Of a DNA stretch of 33,874 nucleotides, positions 7,395 through 27,562 are shown in pieces (the stretch's first letter is position 1; the number at the start of each line of letters is the position of its first letter). This stretch comes from Oscillatoria sp. HE19RPO. GTDB lineage: Bacteria; Cyanobacteriota; Cyanobacteriia; Cyanobacteriales; Laspinemataceae. Location of the stretch: the NCBI RefSeq assembly GCF_024220515.1, contig NZ_JAMXOT010000046.1, forward strand, positions 1 to 33,874, given 5' to 3'. Made by a program: the position numbers and the translations under genes. The notes beneath the pieces were generated by a model, which saw only the letters and a program-made list of their open reading frames with translations, was not told where the DNA came from and did not search any database.

Positions 7395-10300
7395 TCATAA
7401 TAATGAGCGTCTAACCTCGGGGAAATTTTCTAGGGTTTTAGGCAGGCGTTCCCAGTCAAAGGCGGCTATCTGGGTTTGGAGAGTCGTCGCATAATCTAAG
7501 AGTGCCTGACACTGATATTCTAACCCCCAAGCGTGCAAGCGATCGCTAAACTTTCTTAAGTCACGTCGTTTCATGGTTTGAGACAATATCGGCCAGGTTG
7601 TTTCTTCTTCCAGACGGAGTTGTTCAAGTAAAACCGGCAATTTCTGTACCACTTCCCGATCCTGGGGTTGTACCGTTTCCCAAATTGGCTCACTTGAGGA
7701 AGAAAGCGTCAGGGCTTTTTCCCCTTCTTCCGGGGGTAAAATACTCTTTAACAGGGAAACCAGTTGCGATCGCATCAGGGGTTTACGCAGAAACCCCTCG
7801 CATAAGGATTGGACGAGGGCTTCATCACTGGATCGCGAAGAAGCAGTGACCACCACAATCGGTATCTGCTGGGTTTCTGGGTTGTTCTTGAGAAATTTGG
7901 CCACTTCGATCCCGTTAAACTCAGGCATCCACAAATCCAGTAAAATCAGATCCGGTTGGGAGGCGATCGCCTGTTCAATGGCTTCGCGACCATCCCGAGC
8001 AAACAGCAGTTGGTGCTTTGTTTTGCCAAAATACCCCGCAATTAACTCTAAATTCGACGGGACATCATCCACGATTAAAATCGTCCCCGGTTGGAACTGC
8101 TCTAAATTTTCATCCACAGGTGCAGACTCGATTTTTCCAATCTCCGTCCTGGCAATTTTTACCTCGGGAAAGACAAAGGTAAAGGTACTGCCGCGATGGA
8201 GTTCACTCCTTAAGTGAATCGTTCCTCCCAGCATTTCAGTGAGTCTTTTAGTAATGGCTAACCCTAACCCAGTGCCGCCATACTTCCGAGTTGTTTTACC
8301 ATCATTTTGGATAAACGCCTCAAAAATCTGCGCTTGGCGACTGGATGCTATCCCGATCCCTGTATCAGACACTGTTAACTCTAAACTCACGTGGAATGGG
8401 TCGCGGGACCTGGACAAATCAGCCGTTAAAAAAATCGTTATATTCCCCTGTTCTGTAAACTTCAGGGCATTACCCACCACATTAAAGAGGATTTGCCGCA
8501 AACGGACTTCATCAAAGACAATCCCCTCCGGCACCGAGTCGCTAATTTCAACAAATATTCCCAGACCCTTAGCTTCGGCCTTCTGCGAAAAAATCTGCTG
8601 GATATCTCGCAATAACGCTCGAATTAATACAGGCTCATAGTTTAGTTCCAGCTTCCCGGATTCAATTTTAGACAAGTCCAGAATATCGTTAATCAGTACT
8701 AACAAGGTTTGACCACTGATGGCAATCGTCTGAAGATAGGACTGCTGTTGTGGCTCATCGATCATGGTTTTGAGTAATTCGCAAAATCCTAAAATAGCAT
8801 TCATCGGGGTGCGAATTTCGTGACTCATATTGGCCAAAAACTCGCTTTTTGCTTGGTTAGCCGCTTCCGCTTTTTCCTTGGCCTGTTGCAGTTCCTTTTC
8901 GATCTGCTTGAGTTCGGTGATATCCATTTCCAGACCATCCCAAATGGTACGACCATCCTCCATCCGACGCGGCACTGACCGCACTTGAGACCACTGAATT
9001 TGACCGTCCTGGTTGTACTTCCTCATCTGCATTTCAAAGATTGTCAAATTTTGAAAAGATTCTTCCGTAAGTTGGATATTCAAAGCTTGATCTTCAGGAA
9101 CAACTCGGTTGTGCAATAAGGTCATATCCGCTAGAATTGCCTCCGGATCCAGTCCAATTAACCGTTTAATTCCCGCACTGATATAAGAAAAATGATAGCG
9201 TCCATCGGGTTCACGGACTATCTGATAAATTAGCCCTTTATCGAGGTTGTCTCCGAGGTTTCGCAGGATCATTTCCTGTTCTTGGAGGGCGAACTCAGCT
9301 TGTTTGCGATCGCTGATATCTTCGATAATGTAAGAAAATCTCGGATGAACACTGGAGATTCCAAAAATTGGACAGACACTAGCCGCTAACCATTTTTCAC
9401 CCCGAGGGGTGAGATGCTTGTACTCAAATTTAACCGGCATTCCTGTGTCTTGGGCGGCGCAGTAGTGACTCAACCAAATCTCCAGGGCCACTGGAGAAAT
9501 ACCCATCTCCGTAGCGAAGCGATTTTTCATGGCTTCGGTGGTTGTGCCAAAAAATTGGGCGCTGGCTAAATTGTCGGTCAAATGCCGAATATCATCAGGA
9601 TAGAGTTCCACAATTCCCATCAGCATGGAAGCACTATTAAAGAAGCTGCGGAGGGTAGATTCGCTCTCCTGTAACGCTTCTTCTGCCTGTTTGCGATCGG
9701 TGATATCTTCGGCAATTCCCACAAAGCGGTAGGATTCCCCAGACGGATTTTGGATGGAAAAGGACCGCGCCCGAATCCAGCGAATTTCTCCCTGGGGTTG
9801 CACGATGCGGTAGATTTCATCGAAATCGCTTCCTTCGCTAATTTGCTGCATTAACCTTTGGCGAATATGCTCGCGGTCCTCGGGGTGAACCGATTCTAAC
9901 CAATTCCGAGGATTTTGATATAAACTCTGGCAATTCATACCCCAAATTTGTTCATAAGCGGGACTGATATAAATCATCTCCCCAGATTGAGTCAGGATAA
10001 AGAAAACTTCGCGTATATTTTCAGCAAGTTGTCGGAATTTTTCTTCGCTTTCCCGTAATTCCTGCTCGGCGAGTTTAGCAGAAGTGATGTCTTGGAATGT
10101 GCCAAAGAATTCGACTCTTTCTCCGGATTCATTAAAAACGGGCTGCCCTTTGGCGAGGATATAGCGCAGAGTGCCATCGGGCAAAAGAATCCGAAATTCA
10201 TGTTTTTCGAGGAATTCTGCGGTGAACAGACCCTCAACATTCCCAGGAAAATCAGGTAAATCCTCCGGGTGAATTCGCTGTAAGAATTCGTGATAAGTGG

Positions 10301-13300
10301 GTTCGGTAGCTTCGGATTCAAATCCGAAAATCCGAAAGGTTTCTTCAGACCAGAGGACCTTTTGCGTGAGCAGATTAAAGGACCAGTTCCCCAAATGAGC
10401 GATGCGTTGCGCTTCGAGTAAGGCATTTTGACTTTGGCGGAGTTTTTCTTCGACCAATTTGCGATCGCTCACATCTAAAACAATTCCATGCCAGACGATA
10501 TCCCCATTTTCTCGCTGCTCCGGTTGCGAGTTCCCTTGGATCCATTTGATTTTTCCCGAATGGGTAATAATTCGCCATTCATGTTTAAACACGGTCAAGG
10601 TTTCCCCGGCGGCTTGAAGGACCTCAAAATATCCGGCTTTATCTTCCGGATGAATGGTCTCAATAATCGCAGCCTCTACATTTTGAAAGACTTGGGGCAA
10701 GGGAATTTCTATGATTTCTTCAATGGCCTGATTAATATATTCAAATTCTAAAGACTGATCCGGATGTTGAACGAGGGAATAAATATTTCCTGGTACAGCT
10801 CTAGCCAGATTTTGCAGCCGATTTAACGTAATTTTTAAGATTTCTTCAGACTGCTTGCGATCGGTCATATCAATGGACATTCCGATCATGCGATTGGAGA
10901 TTCCGGTCCCATCAGGGACAACCTGAGCATGGACCTGAATCCAGCGCCATCCCAGCTCACTGAGGGGAAAACAAATTCGATATTCTGTTTTAAACCCTCC
11001 CCCATAGCGAATTGCTTCTTCATGTAAACCCTGCAATTCTTCTCGATCTTCGGGATGCACAAGAGCGAGGTATTCTGGGTAGGACATCACTTGAGGAACT
11101 GAATCAAAGGTTGTGGTCGAGAAGACGATCTGATGGGTTTTGAGGTCTCGTTCCCAAGCAATGGTATTGGAAACTTCTAAAGCTAACCGTAAGCGCGATT
11201 CACTGTCTCGGAAAGCCGCTTGAGCGGCTTGGCTTTCCTGATAGAGATTCGCTTGATGAATGGCAATCCCCAAGGGGTCCACGACTCGACGAACCAGTTC
11301 GATTTCTTCTTCGTGCCAAGGGAGGTATTTTGGACTCCATAAACTCAGGGAACCCCAGATCGTGCCGTTCACGGCGAGGGGAACTAATAACCAAGCTCCT
11401 TGGCGATCGCGCGCCAATTCTTCATTAATCGGGTCGTCAATGGTACTGGTATCCACCACCACCACTTGCAGTTGCTTGAGTTGTGCAGCAAAGGGATTAC
11501 CTTCATCGGGGATATCTTCCGCGACGTCTTCGGGTAATTCCGACTCGGGATTATAGGAATATAAATGAGTCCAAACCCCCTGTTCGGGGAGATAACGGAC
11601 GATGGAAGCACGCTCAAAGTCCACCAGTTTGGCAATCCCCGTGGTGGCAGTGGAGAAGATTGTGCTTAAATCAAGGGATTGATGGATAGCTTGAATCACC
11701 TGGTTTAAGACTTGTTCTTGCTGAGTTTTGCGCCCTAGGGCCTGTTCAGCTTGTTTGCGGGTGCTGATATCCGTCACCATTGCCAAACTTCCTACATACT
11801 CTCCCGCTTCATTAAAAATTGGCGTTGCCGAGAGCAGGGTCCAAAGGGGTGAGCCATTTTTGCCATAAAAGAGGAAGTCATGCTGTTCGACGATTCCTTG
11901 TCTACGCCGTTCTAATTTTTCTCGGGCCTCTTGTTTTCCGGCTTCATCCATAAAATAAAGGAGGGATTTTCCCAGCATTTCTTCTGGGGTATATCCAAGG
12001 AGTTCAGCCATTTTGGGATTGACAAAATTCGTACAATCTTGGGCATCAATGCTCCAAATTCCCTCATTGGCTGTTTCTACGATGCGGCGATATTGTTCTT
12101 CCCTCTGTTTGAGGGCCGCTTCCGCCTGCTTGCGCTCGCTAATATCCACAGTGACCTGGGTCACAAACCAGCAGTTTTCCTGGGGTTCAAATCGGGAGGT
12201 ATATCGGGCCGATAAGTAGCGAAGGCTCCCGGATTTAGACTGGAATCGATACTCAAAACTGCTGGTTTTTTCTTGAAAAATCTGCTCAAATAAAGGTAAA
12301 ATAACGTTCTCGATATCCTCCGGGACGATGCGACCCATCCAAATAGATTTATCCTGCAAAAAGTCCTGGGGAGTATAGCCAAAGACAATTTCACATCCGG
12401 CAGATAAATAATCTATTGTCCACTCTTGATTACTCAAGATTTTAATTCGCACGATCGCGGCGATCGAGCTATTGAGAATATCATTTAACTTTTGTTCGGA
12501 GGCAGTGAGTGCCAGTTCCAGCGCTTTGCGATCGGTGATATCTTCAGCAAACCCGATGAATCGTTCCGGGTTACCGGCTGCTTCCTGCAAGAGGTTAATT
12601 TGAGCAAAAATCCAGCGAATTTCCCCATCCGGTCGCCGGATCCGATATTCTCTTTGTACCGGCTTCCCGGTAAGTTGTTCAGCGACAGAGGCTTCCACCA
12701 AAGCGCGGTCTTCTGGGTAAATTGATTCCTGCCAGGAGTTAGAATCTTGATACAAACTTTCACAACTTAGTCCCCAGATTTCTTCGTAAGCGGGACTAAC
12801 ATACATAAACTCTCCCGTGGTGGCCGATCGCACAAAAAACACCTGTCCAATCTTCTGGACAATCTCCCGAAACCGTTCTTCACTCTCGCGCAACGCTGTT
12901 TCAATGGCTTTGCGTTCACCAATGTCTTTCAAAATAGAAAGAATCACCGGCTCTCCATCCAGTTGAATGACTTCACAAGAAACCAGCGCAATTTTAATCT
13001 CTCCGGATTTGGCCCGCCAGTGCAATTCCTGATTTTTAACCACCCCAGTTTCCCTAAGTTGTTGCCGGATGATATCCGCTTGTTCCTGGTCAACAACCAG
13101 ATTAATATCTTTCGAGGTATGATTGATAATTTCATCATATCCATACCCCGATAATTCTAAAAAAGCATTATTAACATCCAGCAAGTGTCTACTGTGGACA
13201 TGAGTAAGGAGAATCATATCGGGACTGCGACGAAAAATCGTAGCATATCGAGCTTCAGACTCGCGCAAATTAGTCTGGAGACGTGCAAAGGCATCCCGCA

Positions 13301-14573
13301 ATTGTGCGGACATTTGATTGAACGATCGCGCCATCTCCGCCAGTTCCTGAATGGGCAAATTTTCATCCAGATTTCGCTGCAAATCCCCGTGCGCTAAAGT
13401 CGCAGCAGTTTGGCTGAGGATCACAATCGGACGAGCAATCCACTGCGTCACCCAGGTCCCCAGAGCCACAGCTATCATGATGGCGAAGACTCCCAACCCC
13501 ATGCTCTGTTTAAAGGATTCATTCAACGGTCCCATTAAATCCGCTTCCGGGAGCACCGTGACAATCCGCCAATTCAGGCTATTCTCTCCATTTTGACCAT
13601 TTTGATAGGGCTGGCTATGGGCAAAATAATGTTGACCTTGCTCCCTAAAATCCCACTGATCGAGGCTCTGTTTTTGACTCCGATTCGACAGTTTTGAAAG
13701 CAAATAGTCCCAATTTGAGCGCAGAAAATGAGGAAAACTGTCCCGGTCTTCTTTCCACTGAATCAGGGTCGGGACACGGTGAAATAAAGGGGATTCCCCC
13801 GTAGAACTCGCAATTAAGTTTCCATCCGGTTCCAGGATTAAAATAAACCCAGACTCCCCTAACTTAATTTGTTTTAAAAACTGATTGACCTGGCTCAGAG
13901 GTAAATTAATCCCAAAAACTCCGGTCAGGGTTTGAGTAACAGGGTCCCTAATCGGCCAACTCGCATTAATCGCAAACTCTTGGCTATTCCAAAGTTGAAA
14001 GGGAGAAGTCCAAATCGGTCCTTGCTGCTGTTTAGCCGCCAGATACCAGGGACGTTCTCGAATATCCCAATCCGACGAGATCACTTCCCGTTGTAGCGGT
14101 TCTAAGCTCCGTTGACCGTTAGCATCAATCTCGTATTCATCAAAAGTCTGAATCGGGGAATGATTCATCACCCCTAGGGTCGTCTTCCCCTCCAAATTAC
14201 GAGCAATTCTGAGTTCCCCTTGTTCATTAGCATACAGAATAGAGGGAATCTGATTGAAGCTGGAAATTTCCCAGATGAGCTGGCGTTCTATCTCCTCTAA
14301 ATTATCGGGGTTGAGGCGCTCAAACGCAACTGCATTCACATTACTGCGATTAATCTGTTCGGCTAGAGCGAAATAGTTATCCAAGTACAAATCCACCCTA
14401 GCCCCCGCTTTCGTCATTAACTCGTGGGCCATCAGACGGGTTGCCTCATGAGTGCGATGCAAAAACAGCGAATTGGTCAGTCCGACGGTCAAAACTAAGA
14501 GGAGGACAAGGGGCACATTTAATACAAGTTGCAGGGGAATTTTTAGTTTAAATCTGGAAAAAATAGCTCCCAT
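7395..14573 (-). CDS. giant membrane hybrid histidine kinase: dCache-HAMP-PAS(x4)-GAF-PAS(x6)-HK-REC
   Basis: A 2392-residue sensor. TM1 is about 17-38, a periplasmic dCache-like ligand domain 45-345, TM2 357-379 and HAMP 380-431. PAS/PAC units then follow at about 437, 562, 690 and 822, a GAF at 947-1121, and PAS units at 1122, 1247, 1379, 1507, 1635 and 1764. HisKA has H1918 in NMSHEIRTP. The HATPase (to about 2137) has VVGNALKF, DTGIGI and GTGLGL. A receiver follows at 2163-2278 (DD 2168-2169, D2213, K2264). Residues 2290-2392 are helical and HPt-like, with SDRLHAW, but not a clear HPt signature. The GAF lacks the bilin-binding Cys, so no chromophore is expected there. It probably integrates an extracellular ligand with several cytoplasmic signals. 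Units 2 and 8 look like internal duplicates. It is read toward the smaller hybrid kinase. Confidence 0.95.
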   Translation of the reverse strand: MGAIFSRFKLKIPLQLVLNVPLVLLLVLTVGLTNSLFLHRTHEATRLMAHELMTKAGARVDLYLDNYFALAEQINRSNVNAVAFERLNPDNLEEIERQLIWEISSFNQIPSILYANEQGELRIARNLEGKTTLGVMNHSPIQTFDEYEIDANGQRSLEPLQREVISSDWDIRERPWYLAAKQQQGPIWTSPFQLWNSQEFAINASWPIRDPVTQTLTGVFGINLPLSQVNQFLKQIKLGESGFILILEPDGNLIASSTGESPLFHRVPTLIQWKEDRDSFPHFLRSNWDYLLSKLSNRSQKQSLDQWDFREQGQHYFAHSQPYQNGQNGENSLNWRIVTVLPEADLMGPLNESFKQSMGLGVFAIMIAVALGTWVTQWIARPIVILSQTAATLAHGDLQRNLDENLPIQELAEMARSFNQMSAQLRDAFARLQTNLRESEARYATIFRRSPDMILLTHVHSRHLLDVNNAFLELSGYGYDEIINHTSKDINLVVDQEQADIIRQQLRETGVVKNQELHWRAKSGEIKIALVSCEVIQLDGEPVILSILKDIGERKAIETALRESEERFREIVQKIGQVFFVRSATTGEFMYVSPAYEEIWGLSCESLYQDSNSWQESIYPEDRALVEASVAEQLTGKPVQREYRIRRPDGEIRWIFAQINLLQEAAGNPERFIGFAEDITDRKALELALTASEQKLNDILNSSIAAIVRIKILSNQEWTIDYLSAGCEIVFGYTPQDFLQDKSIWMGRIVPEDIENVILPLFEQIFQEKTSSFEYRFQSKSGSLRYLSARYTSRFEPQENCWFVTQVTVDISERKQAEAALKQREEQYRRIVETANEGIWSIDAQDCTNFVNPKMAELLGYTPEEMLGKSLLYFMDEAGKQEAREKLERRRQGIVEQHDFLFYGKNGSPLWTLLSATPIFNEAGEYVGSLAMVTDISTRKQAEQALGRKTQQEQVLNQVIQAIHQSLDLSTIFSTATTGIAKLVDFERASIVRYLPEQGVWTHLYSYNPESELPEDVAEDIPDEGNPFAAQLKQLQVVVVDTSTIDDPINEELARDRQGAWLLVPLAVNGTIWGSLSLWSPKYLPWHEEEIELVRRVVDPLGIAIHQANLYQESQAAQAAFRDSESRLRLALEVSNTIAWERDLKTHQIVFSTTTFDSVPQVMSYPEYLALVHPEDREELQGLHEEAIRYGGGFKTEYRICFPLSELGWRWIQVHAQVVPDGTGISNRMIGMSIDMTDRKQSEEILKITLNRLQNLARAVPGNIYSLVQHPDQSLEFEYINQAIEEIIEIPLPQVFQNVEAAIIETIHPEDKAGYFEVLQAAGETLTVFKHEWRIITHSGKIKWIQGNSQPEQRENGDIVWHGIVLDVSDRKLVEEKLRQSQNALLEAQRIAHLGNWSFNLLTQKVLWSEETFRIFGFESEATEPTYHEFLQRIHPEDLPDFPGNVEGLFTAEFLEKHEFRILLPDGTLRYILAKGQPVFNESGERVEFFGTFQDITSAKLAEQELRESEEKFRQLAENIREVFFILTQSGEMIYISPAYEQIWGMNCQSLYQNPRNWLESVHPEDREHIRQRLMQQISEGSDFDEIYRIVQPQGEIRWIRARSFSIQNPSGESYRFVGIAEDITDRKQAEEALQESESTLRSFFNSASMLMGIVELYPDDIRHLTDNLASAQFFGTTTEAMKNRFATEMGISPVALEIWLSHYCAAQDTGMPVKFEYKHLTPRGEKWLAASVCPIFGISSVHPRFSYIIEDISDRKQAEFALQEQEMILRNLGDNLDKGLIYQIVREPDGRYHFSYISAGIKRLIGLDPEAILADMTLLHNRVVPEDQALNIQLTEESFQNLTIFEMQMRKYNQDGQIQWSQVRSVPRRMEDGRTIWDGLEMDITELKQIEKELQQAKEKAEAANQAKSEFLANMSHEIRTPMNAILGFCELLKTMIDEPQQQSYLQTIAISGQTLLVLINDILDLSKIESGKLELNYEPVLIRALLRDIQQIFSQKAEAKGLGIFVEISDSVPEGIVFDEVRLRQILFNVVGNALKFTEQGNITIFLTADLSRSRDPFHVSLELTVSDTGIGIASSRQAQIFEAFIQNDGKTTRKYGGTGLGLAITKRLTEMLGGTIHLRSELHRGSTFTFVFPEVKIARTEIGKIESAPVDENLEQFQPGTILIVDDVPSNLELIAGYFGKTKHQLLFARDGREAIEQAIASQPDLILLDLWMPEFNGIEVAKFLKNNPETQQIPIVVVTASSRSSDEALVQSLCEGFLRKPLMRSQLVSLLKSILPPEEGEKALTLSSSSEPIWETVQPQDREVVQKLPVLLEQLRLEEETTWPILSQTMKRRDLRKFSDRLHAWGLEYQCQALLDYATTLQTQIAAFDWERLPKTLENFPEVRRSLL

Positions 14574-15295: not shown

Positions 15296-15937
15296 TCAAG
15301 CTCTAAAGGGTTGAATCGCAAAATCTCCCAGGGTCACGGTATAGCTAGAACGCACTTGGGCGATCGCAAACTTAATAATCACCTCACAAGCGACTGCCAC
15401 GGTGAGGGTGACTAAATTTCTCGCCAACGGATAATCGCAAATATCATCCTGAACCGGGGAAGGAATCCGATACAGTTCGTTCCAAATGATTTCTGCATAA
15501 TCCGTCGCCAGTCCTACATGAAGACAGGGGATTTCCTGAGTGGCGCACCAATCTGCCACGGCTTTTCGAGACCCACTATTGTCAAAGGTATCAATCACTA
15601 AGTCGGTTTGATTTCCGATGAGTTTATGGGCATTTTCCGCCGTCAATTCTTTAGTTTGAATATCAAGTTTAATCCCCACTGCCCGATAGAGACTGTTGGC
15701 TAAAATCTTGGCTTTAAATGCGCCAATATCGGAACGATAGTACGGCTGAGTGGACAGATTGCGCTCCTCAATGCGATCGCGATCGATCACTGTGAGCCGT
15801 TGGCAGCCACTGCGGGCTAAACTTTCCGTCAGATTCGCCCCCAAAGCACCCGCCCCACAAATCGTCACCGGAAATCCTTGAAGTTTCCCCATGACTTCCG
15901 GTGTTCGATACAGTTGTTCATGAAAATAAATTGACAT
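15296..15937 (-). CDS. ThiF/MoeB/E1-like adenylyltransferase
   Basis: A 213-residue E1-superfamily enzyme, which typically adenylates the C-terminal glycine of a ubiquitin-like or sulfur-carrier protein. The Rossmann nucleotide motif is CGAGALG (27-33), followed by IDRDRIEERNLSTQ (51-64), AFKAK (73-77) and DTFDNSGSR (116-124). The usual NLxRQ arginine is Thr here. The two CxxC zinc pairs of MoeB and ThiF are absent; C167 is the most obvious Cys after the adenylation core. No ThiS, MoaD or ubiquitin-like partner gene is visible nearby. The frame stays open upstream to a TTG at 16060, but those 41 codons run through a dispersed repeat (about 15987-16042), so I start at ATG 15937. It is the last gene of a co-oriented block with the unknown 284-residue protein, KptA and an AAA+ ATPase. 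Confidence 0.85.
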   Translation of the reverse strand: MSIYFHEQLYRTPEVMGKLQGFPVTICGAGALGANLTESLARSGCQRLTVIDRDRIEERNLSTQPYYRSDIGAFKAKILANSLYRAVGIKLDIQTKELTAENAHKLIGNQTDLVIDTFDNSGSRKAVADWCATQEIPCLHVGLATDYAEIIWNELYRIPSPVQDDICDYPLARNLVTLTVAVACEVIIKFAIAQVRSSYTVTLGDFAIQPFRA

Positions 15938-15986
15938 TTTTTTGGGTAATGTTTCAAAAAACAGTTGATACGGAATAGAAAAAATC

Positions 15987-16042
15987 CACACCCTCAAGGG
16001 TGGGGCTACAGGGACGAAGCCCGCCTGCGCGGGCTGAAGAGG
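15987..16042. repeat. dispersed hairpin repeat, family B, copy 1
   Basis: It contains ACCCTCAAGGGT (a small stem), a GGGGCTACAGG linker and AGCCCGC CTGC GCGGGCT (16018-16035, 7-bp stem). A related copy with different but still pairing bases lies at 33768-33823. This copy sits directly upstream of, and in frame with, the ThiF-like gene. Confidence 0.8.
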
Positions 16043-16081
16043 AAAGTCGGTCTTTGACAACTGGATTTGGTAGGAGTAAAC

Positions 16082-16936
16082 TTAATCAAAGCCTTCATCT
16101 CGATTTTCAATCACCCCAATTAGGGATTGTAAATCAAAATCGCGGTCCCTTCCGCTCAAACAAATCCCGGAACTGAATACAGTTAAATCCTGTTTATAAA
16201 TTGCGGAAGTATGTTGTTCTCCGTTCCGGGTAGTCCAGTGAACAGTCCAATACTCATCTCCATTTTCCTGAAAACTTTGTAACTCACCTCCGCCCATTTT
16301 TAACGCGGCTTGCAACCGTTTTTCATCCTGGTAATGCTGCCAATTGGGATTAAATTCGGCCATTTTTCCGCAGACTTGTTCATAAACCGTTCGCATTTCT
16401 GGCGTCAGTCCTTTAAAACTCAAGTCTTTGGGCTGAGTTAAGCGCTTTAACTCGGTTTTAAGCTGTTCTGTGGGCATGGGGTCGGCACGGCGATCGCCAG
16501 ATTCAAACCAGCCATTTTTGCCATCCCAACGCACGACTACGGGGTCAAACTTTCCCCCTTCTCCCACCAAATGGACCACCACAGGTTTCACCGTTCCCGT
16601 ACGCTGACGCCAATCTGATTCATTCATGGGATAAGCCAACCAAGTTTGACCCTGCAACGGATAAGCTAACCACAACCGAGCTTGGGGAAATTGCTCCAAA
16701 TATTCGGCAATTTGTATGAACTCTGCGGGTTCGATTAGCTGGGCTTTTCCCGGCGTATTTGCCTCAAAAATTCCCCACCCTTCAAACCCTCTAGGTTCAA
16801 TTTCAAAGGTGTAAATGATTCCCGCCATTCGTAGTCGAACTCGTCCCCCTTGCACCGCTGGGGCGAGAAACTGTTTCCCCTGCAAATCAGCCTCTTGAAT
16901 CGCCAATTGTTTGAGCAAGTTACGAATATTTTTCAT
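16082..16936 (-). CDS. uncharacterised protein (284 aa) upstream of the ThiF-like gene
   Basis: I do not recognise a characterised domain. The protein is soluble, with no signal peptide or membrane segment. Residues 1-105 look alpha/beta with repeated aromatic and Gly content (EPRGFEGWGIFE, RLWLAYPLQGQTWLAYP). The middle (about 150-230) is charged and helical. The C-terminus has SSGICLSGRDRDFDLQSLIG, which reads like a conserved family signature because of its invariant-looking Gly, Cys and Asp. It precedes the ThiF-like gene by 144 bp on the same strand, counting from the ATG chosen there. An accessory or substrate-binding role with the E1-like enzyme is possible but is only a guess from position. 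The ATG is preceded by AGGAGAAAAGCCT on the minus strand, a usable Shine-Dalgarno. Confidence 0.8.
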   Translation of the reverse strand: MKNIRNLLKQLAIQEADLQGKQFLAPAVQGGRVRLRMAGIIYTFEIEPRGFEGWGIFEANTPGKAQLIEPAEFIQIAEYLEQFPQARLWLAYPLQGQTWLAYPMNESDWRQRTGTVKPVVVHLVGEGGKFDPVVVRWDGKNGWFESGDRRADPMPTEQLKTELKRLTQPKDLSFKGLTPEMRTVYEQVCGKMAEFNPNWQHYQDEKRLQAALKMGGGELQSFQENGDEYWTVHWTTRNGEQHTSAIYKQDLTVFSSGICLSGRDRDFDLQSLIGVIENRDEGFD

Positions 16937-17040
16937 AGGCTTTTCTCCTGAAACGATTTTCCTAATTTATCCAGAATTTTTGTGGGTTTAAGGAAGGAAT
17001 AGAAAGCGAGACGGTCCCACTCTTTTATCTAGTTTTTGGG

Positions 17041-17230
17041 GAGCATCTCAATTTGTCCAAGAGACCTAACCCCCCAACCCCCTTCCCTCAGAGGGAAGGG
17101 GGAGCCGGAAGGGGAGCCGGAAGGGGGAGCCGGAAGGGGAGCCGGAAGGGGGAGCCTCAAAGCCCCTCCCCTCTGAGGGGAGGGGTTTGGGGAGAGGTCA
17201 GACTGGTTTTTAGGCAAAATTGAGATGCTC
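17041..17230. mobile_element. MITE-like element with 14-bp terminal inverted repeats
   Basis: The left end GAGCATCTCAATTT (17041-17054) is the exact reverse complement of 17217-17230. Inside are a palindrome around CCCTTCCCTCAGAGGG (17080-17100), a minisatellite (17096-17156) and a second palindrome CCCCTCCCC T GAGGGGAGGGG type (17163-17185). The element has no coding capacity. It fills most of the 314-bp spacer between kptA and the unknown gene. No exact target duplication is visible at the edges. Confidence 0.75.
17096..17156. repeat. 25-bp higher-order minisatellite
   Basis: Units AAGGGGGAGCCGG (13 bp) and AAGGGGAGCCGG (12 bp) alternate: 13-12-13-12, then a partial 11-bp unit. The strict alternation indicates duplication of a 25-bp dimer rather than of single units. 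Confidence 0.9.
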
Positions 17231-17250
17231 TCATTTTTTGGAAGTTCGGT

Positions 17251-17799
17251 TTATCCCAGAAGCAGATATTTTGGCGGTACTTCATCCACGAGCCAAACCC
17301 CATTATCCGAACAGTAAAATAAATGCCCATCTTGGTGCATTTTGGCAGCTTTAATGGTGAAAATTACAGGTTTTCCTTGACGCATTCCCACCTGTCTAGC
17401 GGTGTCAATATCCGGGGATAAATGAACATGATGGCGCGATCGTTTTTGTAATCCCTGGGCGAGAATTGACTCAACCGCTTGATGTCCCGTGCCATGATAG
17501 AGGATATCCGGGGGACAACTCGGTTCAAGTTGCAAATCTATGGGAATACTATGCCCTTGATTCGCCCGAATTTTTGTGCCGGTGGAATCGAAGGAAAAGC
17601 GCTGCTTATTGCTTGTTTCCACCACTAAATTCAGTTCTGAACGGGTGAGGGGGAACTGGTGAGCTTGTGCGGCTGCGAGTAAGGTTTCCACGGCCACCCA
17701 CCCCCCAGGTTCCAGTTCTAATCCGATTTCTTCGGGATGGTGTCGCAAGTGATAACTGAGATATTTACTGATTTTAATCAGTTGATAATTTTGGGTCAT
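17251..17799 (-). CDS. kptA: KptA/Tpt1 RNA 2'-phosphotransferase
   Basis: A 182-residue protein of usual family length. Tpt1/KptA enzymes move an internal RNA 2'-phosphate to NAD+, giving ADP-ribose 1'',2''-cyclic phosphate; bacteria lack the tRNA splicing that produces such ends in yeast, so the natural substrate is unclear. Signatures are present: SKYLSYHLRHHPEEIGL (R19, H20), a winged-helix N-terminal lobe with GGWV, then KIRANQGHS (R78), LYHGT (100-104), the RHHVHLS block (122-128) and a C-terminal GVWLVDEVPPKYL. It lies 143 bp downstream of the AAA+ gene and upstream of the MITE-like element, all on the minus strand. The annotation is firm; involvement with the ThiF-like gene is not shown. 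Confidence 0.95.
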   Translation of the reverse strand: MTQNYQLIKISKYLSYHLRHHPEEIGLELEPGGWVAVETLLAAAQAHQFPLTRSELNLVVETSNKQRFSFDSTGTKIRANQGHSIPIDLQLEPSCPPDILYHGTGHQAVESILAQGLQKRSRHHVHLSPDIDTARQVGMRQGKPVIFTIKAAKMHQDGHLFYCSDNGVWLVDEVPPKYLLLG

Positions 17800-17900
17800 T
17801 ACATTTTCCGGATTGAGTTGGCTAAATAGTCCCGAGGGTTTTCAGACCCAATCCATCAAAGGTCTACTTTAAGCTGGTCACTCTGCGGATTTGGGCTTTG

Positions 17901-17921
17901 ATTTTTTGGAGTTCCCTTAAT
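17901..17921. repeat. GGAGTTCCC motif, copy 1
   Basis: ATTTTTTGGAGTTCCC plus TTAAT, 21 bp, is identical to the reverse complement of 33733-33753. A 16-bp core recurs at 22348-22363. It lies in the spacer between kptA and the AAA+ gene. Confidence 0.75.
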
Positions 17922-17942
17922 CCCGAATTTAACCCTTTTCTA

Positions 17943-19169
17943 TTAAACAAAAGGATAGGTAAATTCAGAGAGTAAATCAATCCGGCCTTTGCGTAATACA
18001 GCCGGATCTAGTCGTTCCGTTGTATTGCAAGTCATTAAAAACACCAATTTTTGTTGAGCTTGGATTCCCTCCGTATCTAAGATGCTTTGATATAAAGTGC
18101 CATCGAGTAAGCTGAGGATATGTTCAGTTTTATTACTGCGTTGAGCGGCTTCGCTGCCCCGGTCTTGGGCGAGGTTATCTGCTTCATTAATAATGATGCA
18201 AATTTTTTCTAAATAAGTCGGGGGAACGAAATTTTCTACGGCATCATGGTCGAGAATAAAAATCACATATCCCAAGGGGACTAGAATTTCTTTGGCAACA
18301 GCTTGGGTCCAAGCAGTTTTGCCGGTTCCCGGTGCGCCATGAACGAGGACGGCGAGTTGAGGTTGGGTAAAGATGGCCTCTTGGACGCGATCGCTAAAGC
18401 TTTGAATATCGGCAGGAAAGGTGCGAATGGGAAATTCGCTATGAACTTGACCGACACGGCTTTGATAGCCACTGAGCATGACTGCTAGATTGTAGGTGGC
18501 TTTGTTAATGAGCGATCGCAAGTCGTTGGCAATCAGAGTATATTGAAATTGATTACGCCCTATATTTTGAATGCGCCCGAGGTGGTCGATTTGTAGCCAA
18601 ATATCCTGTTTTTTCCAATAGGCATAAACGGTCCCGATGATTTCAAGGCGCTCCCAAGTGGAAAATCGCTCGATGGGATAATAAAAATGCCGGTCTTGGT
18701 AATATTGGGTAATCAAATCGGGCCGACCCAAGAGGTCGAGAACTTTGAAAATGGTAATCTCTTGGAGGCGTTTGAGGACGTAATCAATGGGGATGCTGTC
18801 TCGGCTAACTAATTGCACCACGGGGGTTTCTGCTGCCAGCATATCGGCGGTGCGATAATTGGGTCCAGCCGGTGCGGGAGTAATGTAATCCCAAAACTCG
18901 TTGAAATCTCCTCGGGTGTATTCGGAAAAGACATTTAAAATATTGGCCCACCAGGTGAAATTTTGACGACCTAACGCATCGGCAATATCACTACTCACAT
19001 CTAAGGTTTTGTGGGCCAATTCCCAGGGGTCTTTAGCGGCGAGATGGAAAAAATAACCCCAATCAAACTCCCGGGATAAGGGCCGCCAACCCGCGCCCAG
19101 TAATCCCCGGTCTTGATTAGATTGGCGATCGCTAAGTTCGTTTCCGTTGTCAAAGTTGCCAAATGCCAT
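17943..19169 (-). CDS. AAA+ ATPase with a unique N-terminal region (408 aa)
   Basis: The C-terminal third is an AAA+ module: Walker A GAPGTGKT (278-285), Walker-B region CIIINEADN (324-332), sensor 1 in MTCNTTERLDP (379-389) and RKGRID (393-398), similar to BCS1- and RuvB-like remodelers. The usual Walker B Asp is Asn (N328), while the catalytic Glu (E329) remains. The protein stops about 10 residues after GRID, so no AAA lid is visible. The first 250 residues are unfamiliar, mostly helical and aromatic-rich, without membrane segments. It is the first large gene of the leftward block with kptA, the unknown gene and the ThiF-like gene. AAA+ proteins usually unfold or remodel partners; its target is unknown. 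Confidence 0.85.
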   Translation of the reverse strand: MAFGNFDNGNELSDRQSNQDRGLLGAGWRPLSREFDWGYFFHLAAKDPWELAHKTLDVSSDIADALGRQNFTWWANILNVFSEYTRGDFNEFWDYITPAPAGPNYRTADMLAAETPVVQLVSRDSIPIDYVLKRLQEITIFKVLDLLGRPDLITQYYQDRHFYYPIERFSTWERLEIIGTVYAYWKKQDIWLQIDHLGRIQNIGRNQFQYTLIANDLRSLINKATYNLAVMLSGYQSRVGQVHSEFPIRTFPADIQSFSDRVQEAIFTQPQLAVLVHGAPGTGKTAWTQAVAKEILVPLGYVIFILDHDAVENFVPPTYLEKICIIINEADNLAQDRGSEAAQRSNKTEHILSLLDGTLYQSILDTEGIQAQQKLVFLMTCNTTERLDPAVLRKGRIDLLSEFTYPFV

Positions 19170-26416: not shown

Positions 26417-27562
26417 ATGAATAGTTTTGAAAAAATTGACATTTATGGATTCCGCCGCTTACGCTCGGTGCAAGTTGAGATGAGACCTTTAACAGTCATC
26501 ATCGGGGCCAACGGAGTCGGAAAAACGTCTTTTTTGGAAATGTTCTCCCTTTTATCAGAATCTGCAAAAGGTGAGTTACAGTCAAAAATTTCGGAATTTG
26601 GGGGCCTGGGTGATATATTGACGCGAGACCAGGCTGATAATTTGCGCGTGGTTGGGTCAGTTTTTTTAGAAAAATATGGACAGTTTAACTATTTTTTAAA
26701 ATTAGACATTAAGGGCCAACAATTCTATGAAATAGAACAGGAGGTTCTGAAGAAAACGCCTCTTTTATTTACTTACATAAACTCTAGCGGTTTAGATATT
26801 CAATATTTTGCTAATAATAATCAGGTTCCGGTCCGTCCCAACTGGGAACATAATCCGTTAGAAACCTCGCTTTCGCAAGTTCCTAAAATGTACCCAGAAG
26901 CGGAAGCTGTACGGAAGCAATTCGCCTCATGTAGCTTTTATCGAGCTTGGGAATTGAATTTATCTCCTACCAGTCCAATCCGGTTACCGCAAGCGATGCG
27001 TCCCGCCACCTTACCCGGAAATCGGGGGGAAAATTTAGTCTCTTGCCTTTATAATTTACGGGAAACAGAACCGGATCGATTTGAACTGATAACCGATACT
27101 TTATCTGCTGCCTTTCCTAGTTTTGAACGCTTGAGTTTTCCCCCAGTAGCAGCAGGCACATTGGCCTTGACTTGGAAGGATAAAAATTTTTCACACCCCC
27201 TTTATATGCATCAGCTTTCCGAGGGAACGGTGCGTTTTTTGTGGTTAGTCACCCTGCTGCAAAGTCCGAATTTAACTGCTGTAACGCTTATTGATGAACC
27301 GGAAGTCAGCTTGCATCCGGAATTGTTGCGATTGCTAGTGGATGTCATGCGAGAAGCATCGAAGCGAACGCAGCTAATTGTTGCTACCCATTCCGATCGC
27401 CTAATCCGCTTTTTGCAACCGGCAGAAGTGCTGGTATGCGATGCGGATGAAGAGGGCTTTACGACGATGACTTGGGCCGATTCTCTGGATTTAGAGAACT
27501 GGTTGGAAGAGTATAGTTTAGATGAACTGTGGGCGATGAATATCATCGGAGGGCGATCGTGA
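26417..27562 (+). CDS. AAA (ABC-type) ATPase, partner of the DUF4276 protein
   Basis: A 381-residue ATPase of the AAA_21/OLD-like, RecF-type class. Walker A is GANGVGKT (30-37), a signature-like LSEGT lies at 268-272, Walker B is VTLIDEPEVSLHP (289-301; D293, E294) and the H-loop is ATHSD (H325). The middle (about 90-240) is a family-specific lid or arm region. The tail SLDELWAMNIIGG matches a motif I associate with ATPases paired with DUF4276 proteins. The stop codon overlaps the GTG start of the next gene (GTGA), so the two are translationally coupled. Such ATPase-TOPRIM pairs (OLD, PARIS) sense phage or other invaders and control an effector nuclease; a defence role here is inferred. Confidence 0.9.
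   Translation: MNSFEKIDIYGFRRLRSVQVEMRPLTVIIGANGVGKTSFLEMFSLLSESAKGELQSKISEFGGLGDILTRDQADNLRVVGSVFLEKYGQFNYFLKLDIKGQQFYEIEQEVLKKTPLLFTYINSSGLDIQYFANNNQVPVRPNWEHNPLETSLSQVPKMYPEAEAVRKQFASCSFYRAWELNLSPTSPIRLPQAMRPATLPGNRGENLVSCLYNLRETEPDRFELITDTLSAAFPSFERLSFPPVAAGTLALTWKDKNFSHPLYMHQLSEGTVRFLWLVTLLQSPNLTAVTLIDEPEVSLHPELLRLLVDVMREASKRTQLIVATHSDRLIRFLQPAEVLVCDADEEGFTTMTWADSLDLENWLEEYSLDELWAMNIIGGRS
27548..27553 (+). promoter_or_regulatory. Shine-Dalgarno that fixes the DUF4276 start
   Basis: GGAGGG lies five bases before GTG 27559, inside the end of the ATPase gene. It makes the 4-bp-overlap GTG a better start than the in-frame ATG at 27529. Confidence 0.75.

Follow-up and report, generated by a model that had tools for sequence, protein, structure and literature searches.

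The DNA analysed here, called the window, is the 33,874-nucleotide contig NZ_JAMXOT010000046.1 (C437) of the 7.67 Mb genome (G000) of the cyanobacterium Oscillatoria sp. HE19RPO. Four co-oriented open reading frames (ORFs) were confirmed on its minus strand, encoding an AAA+ ATPase, a KptA/Tpt1 RNA 2'-phosphotransferase, a protein of 284 amino acids (X284) and an E1-like adenylyltransferase of the ThiF fold (E1). These genes are neither four equal partners nor mere neighbours. E1 and X284 are the core, and they make up half of a five-part system whose other half lies elsewhere in the genome for this genus, here on contig C402 (locus L178), where genes for a ubiquitin-like modifier (Ubl) and a vWA protein stand on either side of copies of a tRNA-mimic RNA. 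We hold it moderately probable that the five parts work together, with E1 activating Ubl, X284 relaying or targeting it and the substrate lying in the RNA-protein partner.

The distribution of the genes was followed in 292 cyanobacterial genomes. X284 was found in 17 of them (in G167 as a C-terminal piece only) and E1, at E <= 1e-30, likewise in 17, the two being together in 16 of the 18 genomes having either. Ubl was detected in 15 genomes, of which 14 also carried X284, E1 and the vWA protein, and Ubl and vWA genes were shared by 15 of the 20 genomes with either. For the comparison of loci, 80 of 150 X284 relatives were taken, and the 95 X284 loci counted include at least two doubles (L028/L088 and L029/L118 are the same contigs). 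E1 was present in 84 of these loci, in every case downstream and on the same strand (84/84), with a median spacer of 37 bp and an overlap in 23. Eleven loci had no E1; in the four that were checked genome-wide (G116, G118, G213 and G060), the gene was present elsewhere. Neighbourhoods of 97 loci contained a protein of 66-69 residues in 48 and a vWA protein of ~477 residues in 67, both upstream and on the same strand. Seven further genomes of the genus were tested and all had X284 and Ubl; in G295, which is assembled in three contigs, the two genes lie ~1 Mb apart on one contig.

The E1 gene (15296-15937, minus strand) encodes 213 amino acids from an ATG, the start favoured by homologues, whereas the ORF tool gives 254 amino acids from an upstream TTG. 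The product matches Pfam ThiF at 7.7e-27 and retains the adenylation site of the ThiF/MoeB superfamily, namely the GxGxxG loop, D52, K75 and D119-N120. Residues invariant in 17 diverse members include G28, G30, G33, D52, R55, E57, N60, Q64, K75, D119, N120, R124 and C167 (in CxYPL), so that Cys167 is kept in all 17 aligned sequences. The initial annotation described the window's enzyme as devoid of both CxxC pairs and of the NLxRQ arginine, and the alignment shows the same throughout: none of the 17 sequences has the CxxC zinc pairs of canonical ThiF/MoeB enzymes, and the NLxRQ position reads NLSTQ in 11, the window's among them, and other non-Arg variants in six. The PRTRC model for E1 scored 43.7 bits, below its cut-off of 144.75.

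X284 (16082-16936, minus strand) has no Pfam match at E <= 1, and nothing useful was obtained from NCBIfam, PHROGs, PADLOC or PDB profiles; no PRTRC model was among its matches. Across 71 sequences a GIC motif near the C-terminus (G257-I258-C259) is invariant, and no conserved His follows the Cys. Because Cys259 is invariant, this core component is a candidate E2-like relay or targeting subunit. An assignment to ThiS/MoaD was tried and rejected, as the profile comparison gave no match. In Microcoleus vaginatus HSN003 a second X284-E1 pair (L110, the first being L107) has a ParA-like gene upstream and no Ubl or vWA gene in the locus.

That no ThiS/MoaD partner was visible, as the initial annotation remarked, is correct within the window and does not hold within the genome, where the 66-residue Ubl is encoded on the other contig (G000:C402 = L178, 8725-8925). 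Its C-terminal end has the invariant pattern RPxA(V/I)(Y/F)G; in 30 sequences, down to 23% identity, R5, R60, P61, A63 and the terminal G66 are invariant, and this Gly is at the very end of all 30. An AlphaFold model from 29 sequences (predicted local distance difference test, pLDDT, 91.3; predicted template modelling score, pTM, 0.75) predicts a beta-grasp fold with high confidence, with the order beta-beta-alpha-beta-beta and a loose tail. The 50 VIA-align matches listed, of 927 re-aligned chains, have Z of 4.3-5.4 and cover 50-63 of the 66 residues. They comprise ubiquitin, ISG15, NEDD8, PB1, FERM, molybdopterin synthase, TtuB, protein G and others of this kind, and, judging by their titles, we take all 50 to be ubiquitin-like/beta-grasp. 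Profile searches of Pfam, NCBIfam and PDB returned no relatives of Ubl, and no PRTRC model was among the matches of the two Ubl proteins scanned.

The RNA between the Ubl and vWA genes is ~126 nt long, a long bulged stem enclosing a tRNA-like cloverleaf, and in the window's genome it is present as five copies in tandem (L178 8988-9786). The cloverleaf is the inner part; the strands on either side of it pair into two outer helices, which flank a CCYNRAC / ACUUG internal loop. The structure was drawn on one of 29 aligned RNAs. In this alignment one outer helix is paired in 245 of 257 cells, with compensatory changes in 7 of its 10 pairs, and the other in 221 of 232, with such changes in 6 of 8; for the two phage sequences, 5 of 10 positions of the outer helix are paired here. 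The first eight bases include TACATA in 69 of the 71 cyanobacterial copies. After removal of six duplicate phage loci, 68 Ubl-vWA intervals were left, at least one double still being among them; ARAGORN called a tRNA in 63, that in L196 being a different tRNA, and Rfam tRNA matches the cloverleaf as well. With a covariance model of the RNA (R1), it was detected in L196 and in four loci that had no ARAGORN call (L077, L093, L108 and L197). L196 and L197, neither of which is in the model, scored 66.8 and 65.3 bits, and the next matches in those records scored 44.2 and 32.6. No RNA was found with R1 in the 33-nt Ubl-vWA gap of L195.

This RNA tracks the Ubl gene. As R1 at E 1e-5 also picks up ordinary tRNAs in each of the 292 genomes, a gap in bit scores was used as the cut, 73.1 bits being the lowest of the high group and 59.6 the next score; the cut was chosen after the scores had been seen, from matches listed by E-value. 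Matches of more than 70 bits were obtained in 16 of the 292 genomes among the matches listed, that is, in 15 of 15 with a Ubl gene and in 1 of 277 others (G278). Ten of the 15 Ubl genomes had supplied RNAs to R1, and G229, G060, G185, G103 and G099 had not. The copy in G278 (C172:200-323; 106.7 bits) is full-length and lies at the edge of a contig; no Ubl gene was detected in that genome. In two phages, second copies were seen upstream of the Ubl gene (L208:16974-17103, 80.7 bits; L199:2746-2874, 73.0 bits).

The vWA protein is encoded beside Ubl and the RNA copies (L178 9962-11395). Its profile was aligned with three cyanobacterial TROVE proteins at 97.3% probability in hhalign (E 2.5e-11, 314 columns). 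Taken by halves, the comparison with TROVE gave 96.5% (E 8e-10) for the vWA half and 26.8% (E 7e-4) for the helical half, and mismatched halves gave 0.1-0.5%. The Pfam TROVE model matched neither of the two vWA proteins scanned, and the window's own genome contains no Pfam TROVE match. The protein is tentatively placed as a Ro60/TROVE relative, on a weak helical match and the RNA next door. The RNA has a long bulged stem formed from paired ends, as a Y RNA has, and a neighbour gene whose Ro kinship is tentative; no Rfam Y RNA family was matched at E up to 10 in L178:8920-9970.

Relatives of X284 also occur in eight distinct phage or viral records, including the 595 kb phage genome LR756511.1. 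Duplicate contigs were dropped (L198 and L205 of L196, L200 and L206 of L197, L204 and L207 of L195, and L203 of L194). In 7 of the 8 records, a single strand carries the genes for the vWA protein, X284 and E1 in that succession, and Ubl lies upstream in 5 of the 8. X284 of L195 is 25% identical to that of the window, and a 66-residue ORF before the vWA gene of this record ends in RPRAVYG. In the L194/L203 record, X284 lies near the contig end and nothing more was seen. The phages have one to several small ORFs between X284 and E1, and in 3 of the 8 records one of these is a Prok-JAB match, over the cut-off of 25 bits in L199 (34.4) and LR756511.1 (32.5) and below it in L202 (20.2). All three JAB-type proteins have the JAMM-type motif HTHPx6SGxD; the gene adjoins E1 in L199, and further ORFs intervene in LR756511.1 and L202. 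In L196 the Ubl and vWA genes have an HNH endonuclease gene (9461-10072) between them. The system is also carried by plasmids of Dolichospermum flos-aquae and Kovacikia minuta, and its presence in large phages and cyanobacterial plasmids suggests a role in conflict.

The most likely sequence of events can be outlined. E1 would adenylate the C-terminal Gly of Ubl, as its conserved ATP site and the invariant tail of the modifier suggest, and might then hold Ubl on Cys167. It would pass Ubl to X284, the candidate E2-like relay, which is the weakest step. The vWA protein, which may be related to Ro60, may bind the tRNA-mimic RNA, judging from gene order and the tentative homology, and could be the platform or the target of the tag. 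Phages with a JAB protease would use it to trim or remove this tag, and KptA might heal 2'-phosphate RNA ends once RNA of the same pathway is cut. E1-driven activation of a removable modifier is argued for by the adenylation residues and Cys167 of E1, GIC259 of X284, the invariant Ubl tail and the JAB gene of some phages.

Several observations weigh against such a pathway. G116 and G125 have E1, X284 and the vWA protein without detected Ubl or RNA, and G185 has Ubl and vWA genes without detected X284 or E1. The homologues compared share history, and Fisher p-values for co-occurrence therefore overstate independence. For Ubl, the VIA-align Z of at most 5.4 falls in a range that the tool calls middling, Foldseek with the model was not significant (best E 0.58), and ThiS/MoaD profiles do not match (hhalign 0.75%). 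X284 shows no UBC/E2 homology in Pfam or PDB profiles, and its AlphaFold model from 16 sequences is too poor (pLDDT 56.9, Cys region unplaced) to tell an E2, a ubiquitin-like and a JAB fold apart; E2-like chains do not appear in the match list of this model, which excludes nothing. An unrelated membrane vWA protein (L172), taken as a control, matches the vWA half at 93.4% (E 2.6e-7) and the helical half at 0.2%. As L172 matches the vWA half nearly as well as that of TROVE does, the vWA match is hardly informative on Ro60, specificity for TROVE comes from the helical half, and a firm identification of the vWA protein as Ro60 was given up after this control. Finally, no JAB was found in 5 of the 8 phage records or in the Kovacikia plasmid, other cyanobacterial genomes not having been searched for it.

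The main rival explanation concerns the chemistry of the modifier. TtuB and Urm1 are beta-grasp sulfur carriers with a GG end that are activated by a small E1 and act on tRNA. Ubl could be a thiocarboxylate carrier of this type that E1 activates; damaged tRNAs or the tRNA-mimic RNA would then be thiolated by the system, and X284 would serve as acceptor or RNA-modifying subunit. The likeness lies in a beta-grasp protein paired with a small E1 and in the tRNA theme, the RNA partner being tRNA-shaped, and the Ubl matches listed include a TtuB complex (5gha, Z 4.4), a 'sulfurtransferase' (5ztb, 4.5) and human molybdopterin synthase (5mpo, 5.3). For the N-terminal part of the X284 model, the best matches are of low Z (up to 5.3) and come from RNA-modifying enzymes with TRAM/OB-type domains, a hint that the model is too poor to carry and that is not relied on here. 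However, Ubl ends in YG or FG and not in GG, E1 has no CxxC, and no rhodanese, SirA, TtuA-like or other sulfur-handling gene was noticed in the loci examined, where no dedicated search was made. We regard sulfur transfer as possible, though rather unlikely.

Another explanation would remove the RNA from the system and take the element between Ubl and vWA as an ordinary tRNA or integration site. Its cloverleaf, the ARAGORN calls and the Rfam match are in keeping with this, mobile elements often use tRNA genes, and tRNA arrays adjoin the Ubl gene in some loci. Such arrays, with 15-32 tRNA genes upstream of Ubl, were found in six loci (27 genes in the window's genome), and three or more tRNAs lie within 5 kb upstream of Ubl in 10 of the 59 loci with enough sequence. 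The array of the window's genome includes 56 bases (L178:6202-6257) that match Rfam LSU_rRNA_archaea with 52.2 bits, the cut-off being 50. Against an ordinary tRNA stand the longer covarying stem around the element, the occurrence of the full RNA in all genomes with a Ubl gene, and the behaviour of the anticodon. In 30 Nostoc-type copies, differences per site amount to 0.526 in the anticodon triplet (210/399) versus 0.090 elsewhere (853/9476), which is 5.8 times as many, and 20 of 31 RNA pairs with at most three other differences have unlike anticodons. By contrast, 102 of 102 closely similar pairs of array tRNAs, the control from six loci, keep their anticodon. The claim that the anticodon is the fastest-changing part was toned down: among the same 30 RNAs, its first base ranks top in variability (0.67) and its second base ranks third (0.56), but its third base has only 0.35, one site of the variable loop comes to 0.62, and when all 71 cyanobacterial copies are taken, the entropy of several other sites is similar. 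Taken together, an ordinary tRNA or integration site is improbable.

A more specific version of the Ubl pathway is also conceivable. Tagging by Ubl might be governed by a tRNA mimic displayed on the vWA protein, whose exchangeable anticodon loop would copy the tRNA targets of anticodon-cleaving nucleases in phage-host conflict; cutting or release of this bait would switch E1-X284 tagging on or off, and KptA would mend the 2'-phosphate ends. We consider this bait function unlikely. In a bolder variant, the modifier would be esterified to the 3' end of the tRNA mimic.

The two other leftward genes of the window are recurrent but optional companions. KptA (17251-17799, minus strand, 182 amino acids) matches Pfam KptA at 1.1e-54 and the family model NF002014 with 274 bits, over the cut-off of 239. 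It was found in 33 of the 292 genomes, namely in 12 of the 16 with X284 and E1 versus 21 of the 276 others, and it lies near X284 in 18 of the 95 loci. In G185, where neither X284 nor E1 was detected, a KptA gene (L186:12623-13216) follows ~3 kb downstream of the vWA gene, close to the end of the contig. The AAA+ ATPase (17943-19169, minus strand, 408 amino acids; Pfam AAA 2.1e-13) matches FtsH/Cdc48-type models and not a MoxR model. Its gene is near X284 in 11 of the 95 loci, and in G008 a homologue adjoins the other half of the system (L181:12267-13508). Both genes, when near X284, are always upstream on the same strand (18/18 and 11/11). Other neighbours of X284, seen in single loci that were scanned, encode Nudix, GNAT, NADAR, RNase T-type exonuclease and endonuclease V proteins.

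The spacers between the four genes measure 143, 314 and 144 bp, exactly as reported initially. Scattering of the genes in close relatives, named at that time as an argument against a linkage, was looked for and not seen: the order AAA+, KptA, X284, E1 is kept in all five closest relatives fetched (L057-L061; X284 89-92% identical), which comprise Laspinema strains, an Oscillatoria metagenome-assembled genome and Phormidium pseudopriestleyi, and the four-gene arrangement is therefore more than chance. That the four genes are unrelated neighbours, co-oriented by chance, is very improbable, since the loose spacers and the many X284 loci without KptA or AAA+ nearby are outweighed by the constant position and strand of all three partners, genome-wide co-occurrence and the phage clusters, and for E1 and X284 it is already contradicted. 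The initial proposal of a conjugation or RNA-repair-related system, or just neighbours, thus holds in part. Its conjugation-like part is supported by the co-occurrence of E1 and X284 with Ubl, and with a JAB-type protein in three of the phage records, and its RNA link by the tRNA mimic that tracks the Ubl gene and by the enrichment of KptA; an obligate set of four genes is not supported by the counts for KptA and AAA+ given above.

Other features of the window were noted as well. Downstream of the E1 gene (7395-14573) lies a 2392-residue protein, taken to be a hybrid sensor kinase on account of its sequence with numerous PAS-like repeats, and five loci have relatives of it in the vicinity of X284. 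Between X284 and KptA, the 314-bp spacer contains a repetitive ORF rich in Pro, Ser and Gly (17029-17217; SPNPSPQRGG...). At 26417-27562, an ATPase resembles MAD3 of the methylation-associated defence system with 91 bits, far under the cut-off of 420.

Several known systems share features with the one described here. The PRTRC system corresponds to type 6d of the prokaryotic Ub-like operons. As set out by Iyer, Burroughs and Aravind (2006; PMC1779556), types 6a-6e always have a JAB protein fused or adjacent, and the E2-like protein of type 6d has a conserved His after its Cys. Common to type 6d and the present system are a small protein with a C-terminal Gly, an E1-like enzyme, a separate Cys-bearing protein, a patchy distribution, mobile elements and JAB, though here only in some phages. 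The present system differs in having no conserved His after Cys259 of X284, in its RNA and vWA protein, neither of which is described with types 6a-6e in the parts of the study covered, and in the PRTRC models, which it does not reach.

In multicellular bacteria, vWA-MoxR ternary conflict systems are reported to be associated with Ub-like conjugation systems of prokaryotes (PMC7159879). A vWA protein, an AAA+ ATPase nearby in some loci, occurrence in multicellular cyanobacteria and a Ub-like link are shared with them; in contrast, the AAA+ ATPase found here is FtsH/Cdc48-type and optional, and no set of Ubl, vWA protein and RNA is described in the parts of that paper covered. The Cap2 E1-E2 fusion of the cyclic-oligonucleotide-based antiphage signalling system (CBASS) likewise brings E1-like chemistry into a bacterial system (PMC12355090), but the present system differs in that E1 and X284 are separate proteins and the beta-grasp modifier is separate too. 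For the tRNA arrays, a counterpart is the long tRNA operon (trn) of Anabaena PCC 7120, inducible by translation stress and with TrcR as its repressor (PMC10272220). The sections of that article covered mention no ubiquitin-like system, and, unlike the RNA, the arrays accompany a minority of Ubl loci.

Ro60 and Rsr proteins associate with Y RNA, including the tRNA-mimicking YrlA RNAs. A possible TROVE-like helical part joined to vWA, and a long bulged-stem RNA with a tRNA-like module encoded beside the protein gene, recall this partnership. The kinship to TROVE is tentative, however, no Rfam Y RNA was matched, a Ubl pathway is attached and the anticodon is highly variable.

To our knowledge, a Ubl activation pathway, a dedicated structured RNA and a protein partner for that RNA have not been described as one system. 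The parts covered of PMC7159879, PMC7824862, PMC9503650 and PMC12355090 do not describe the present gene set. No such system was recognised in the open-licence literature of PubMed Central (PMC), to which the search extended; as subscription papers, including later Aravind-group surveys, were outside it, an earlier description may exist. The integrated system is thus apparently undescribed, though each part belongs to a known superfamily or type. Should the proposed pathway hold, bacteria would have a connection between ubiquitin-like chemistry and RNA quality control, and Ro/Y-RNA biology might gain a new enzymatic arm. The system would put on offer a tRNA-shaped RNA with the anticodon among its most variable sites, and its phage versions are compact enough for reconstitution.

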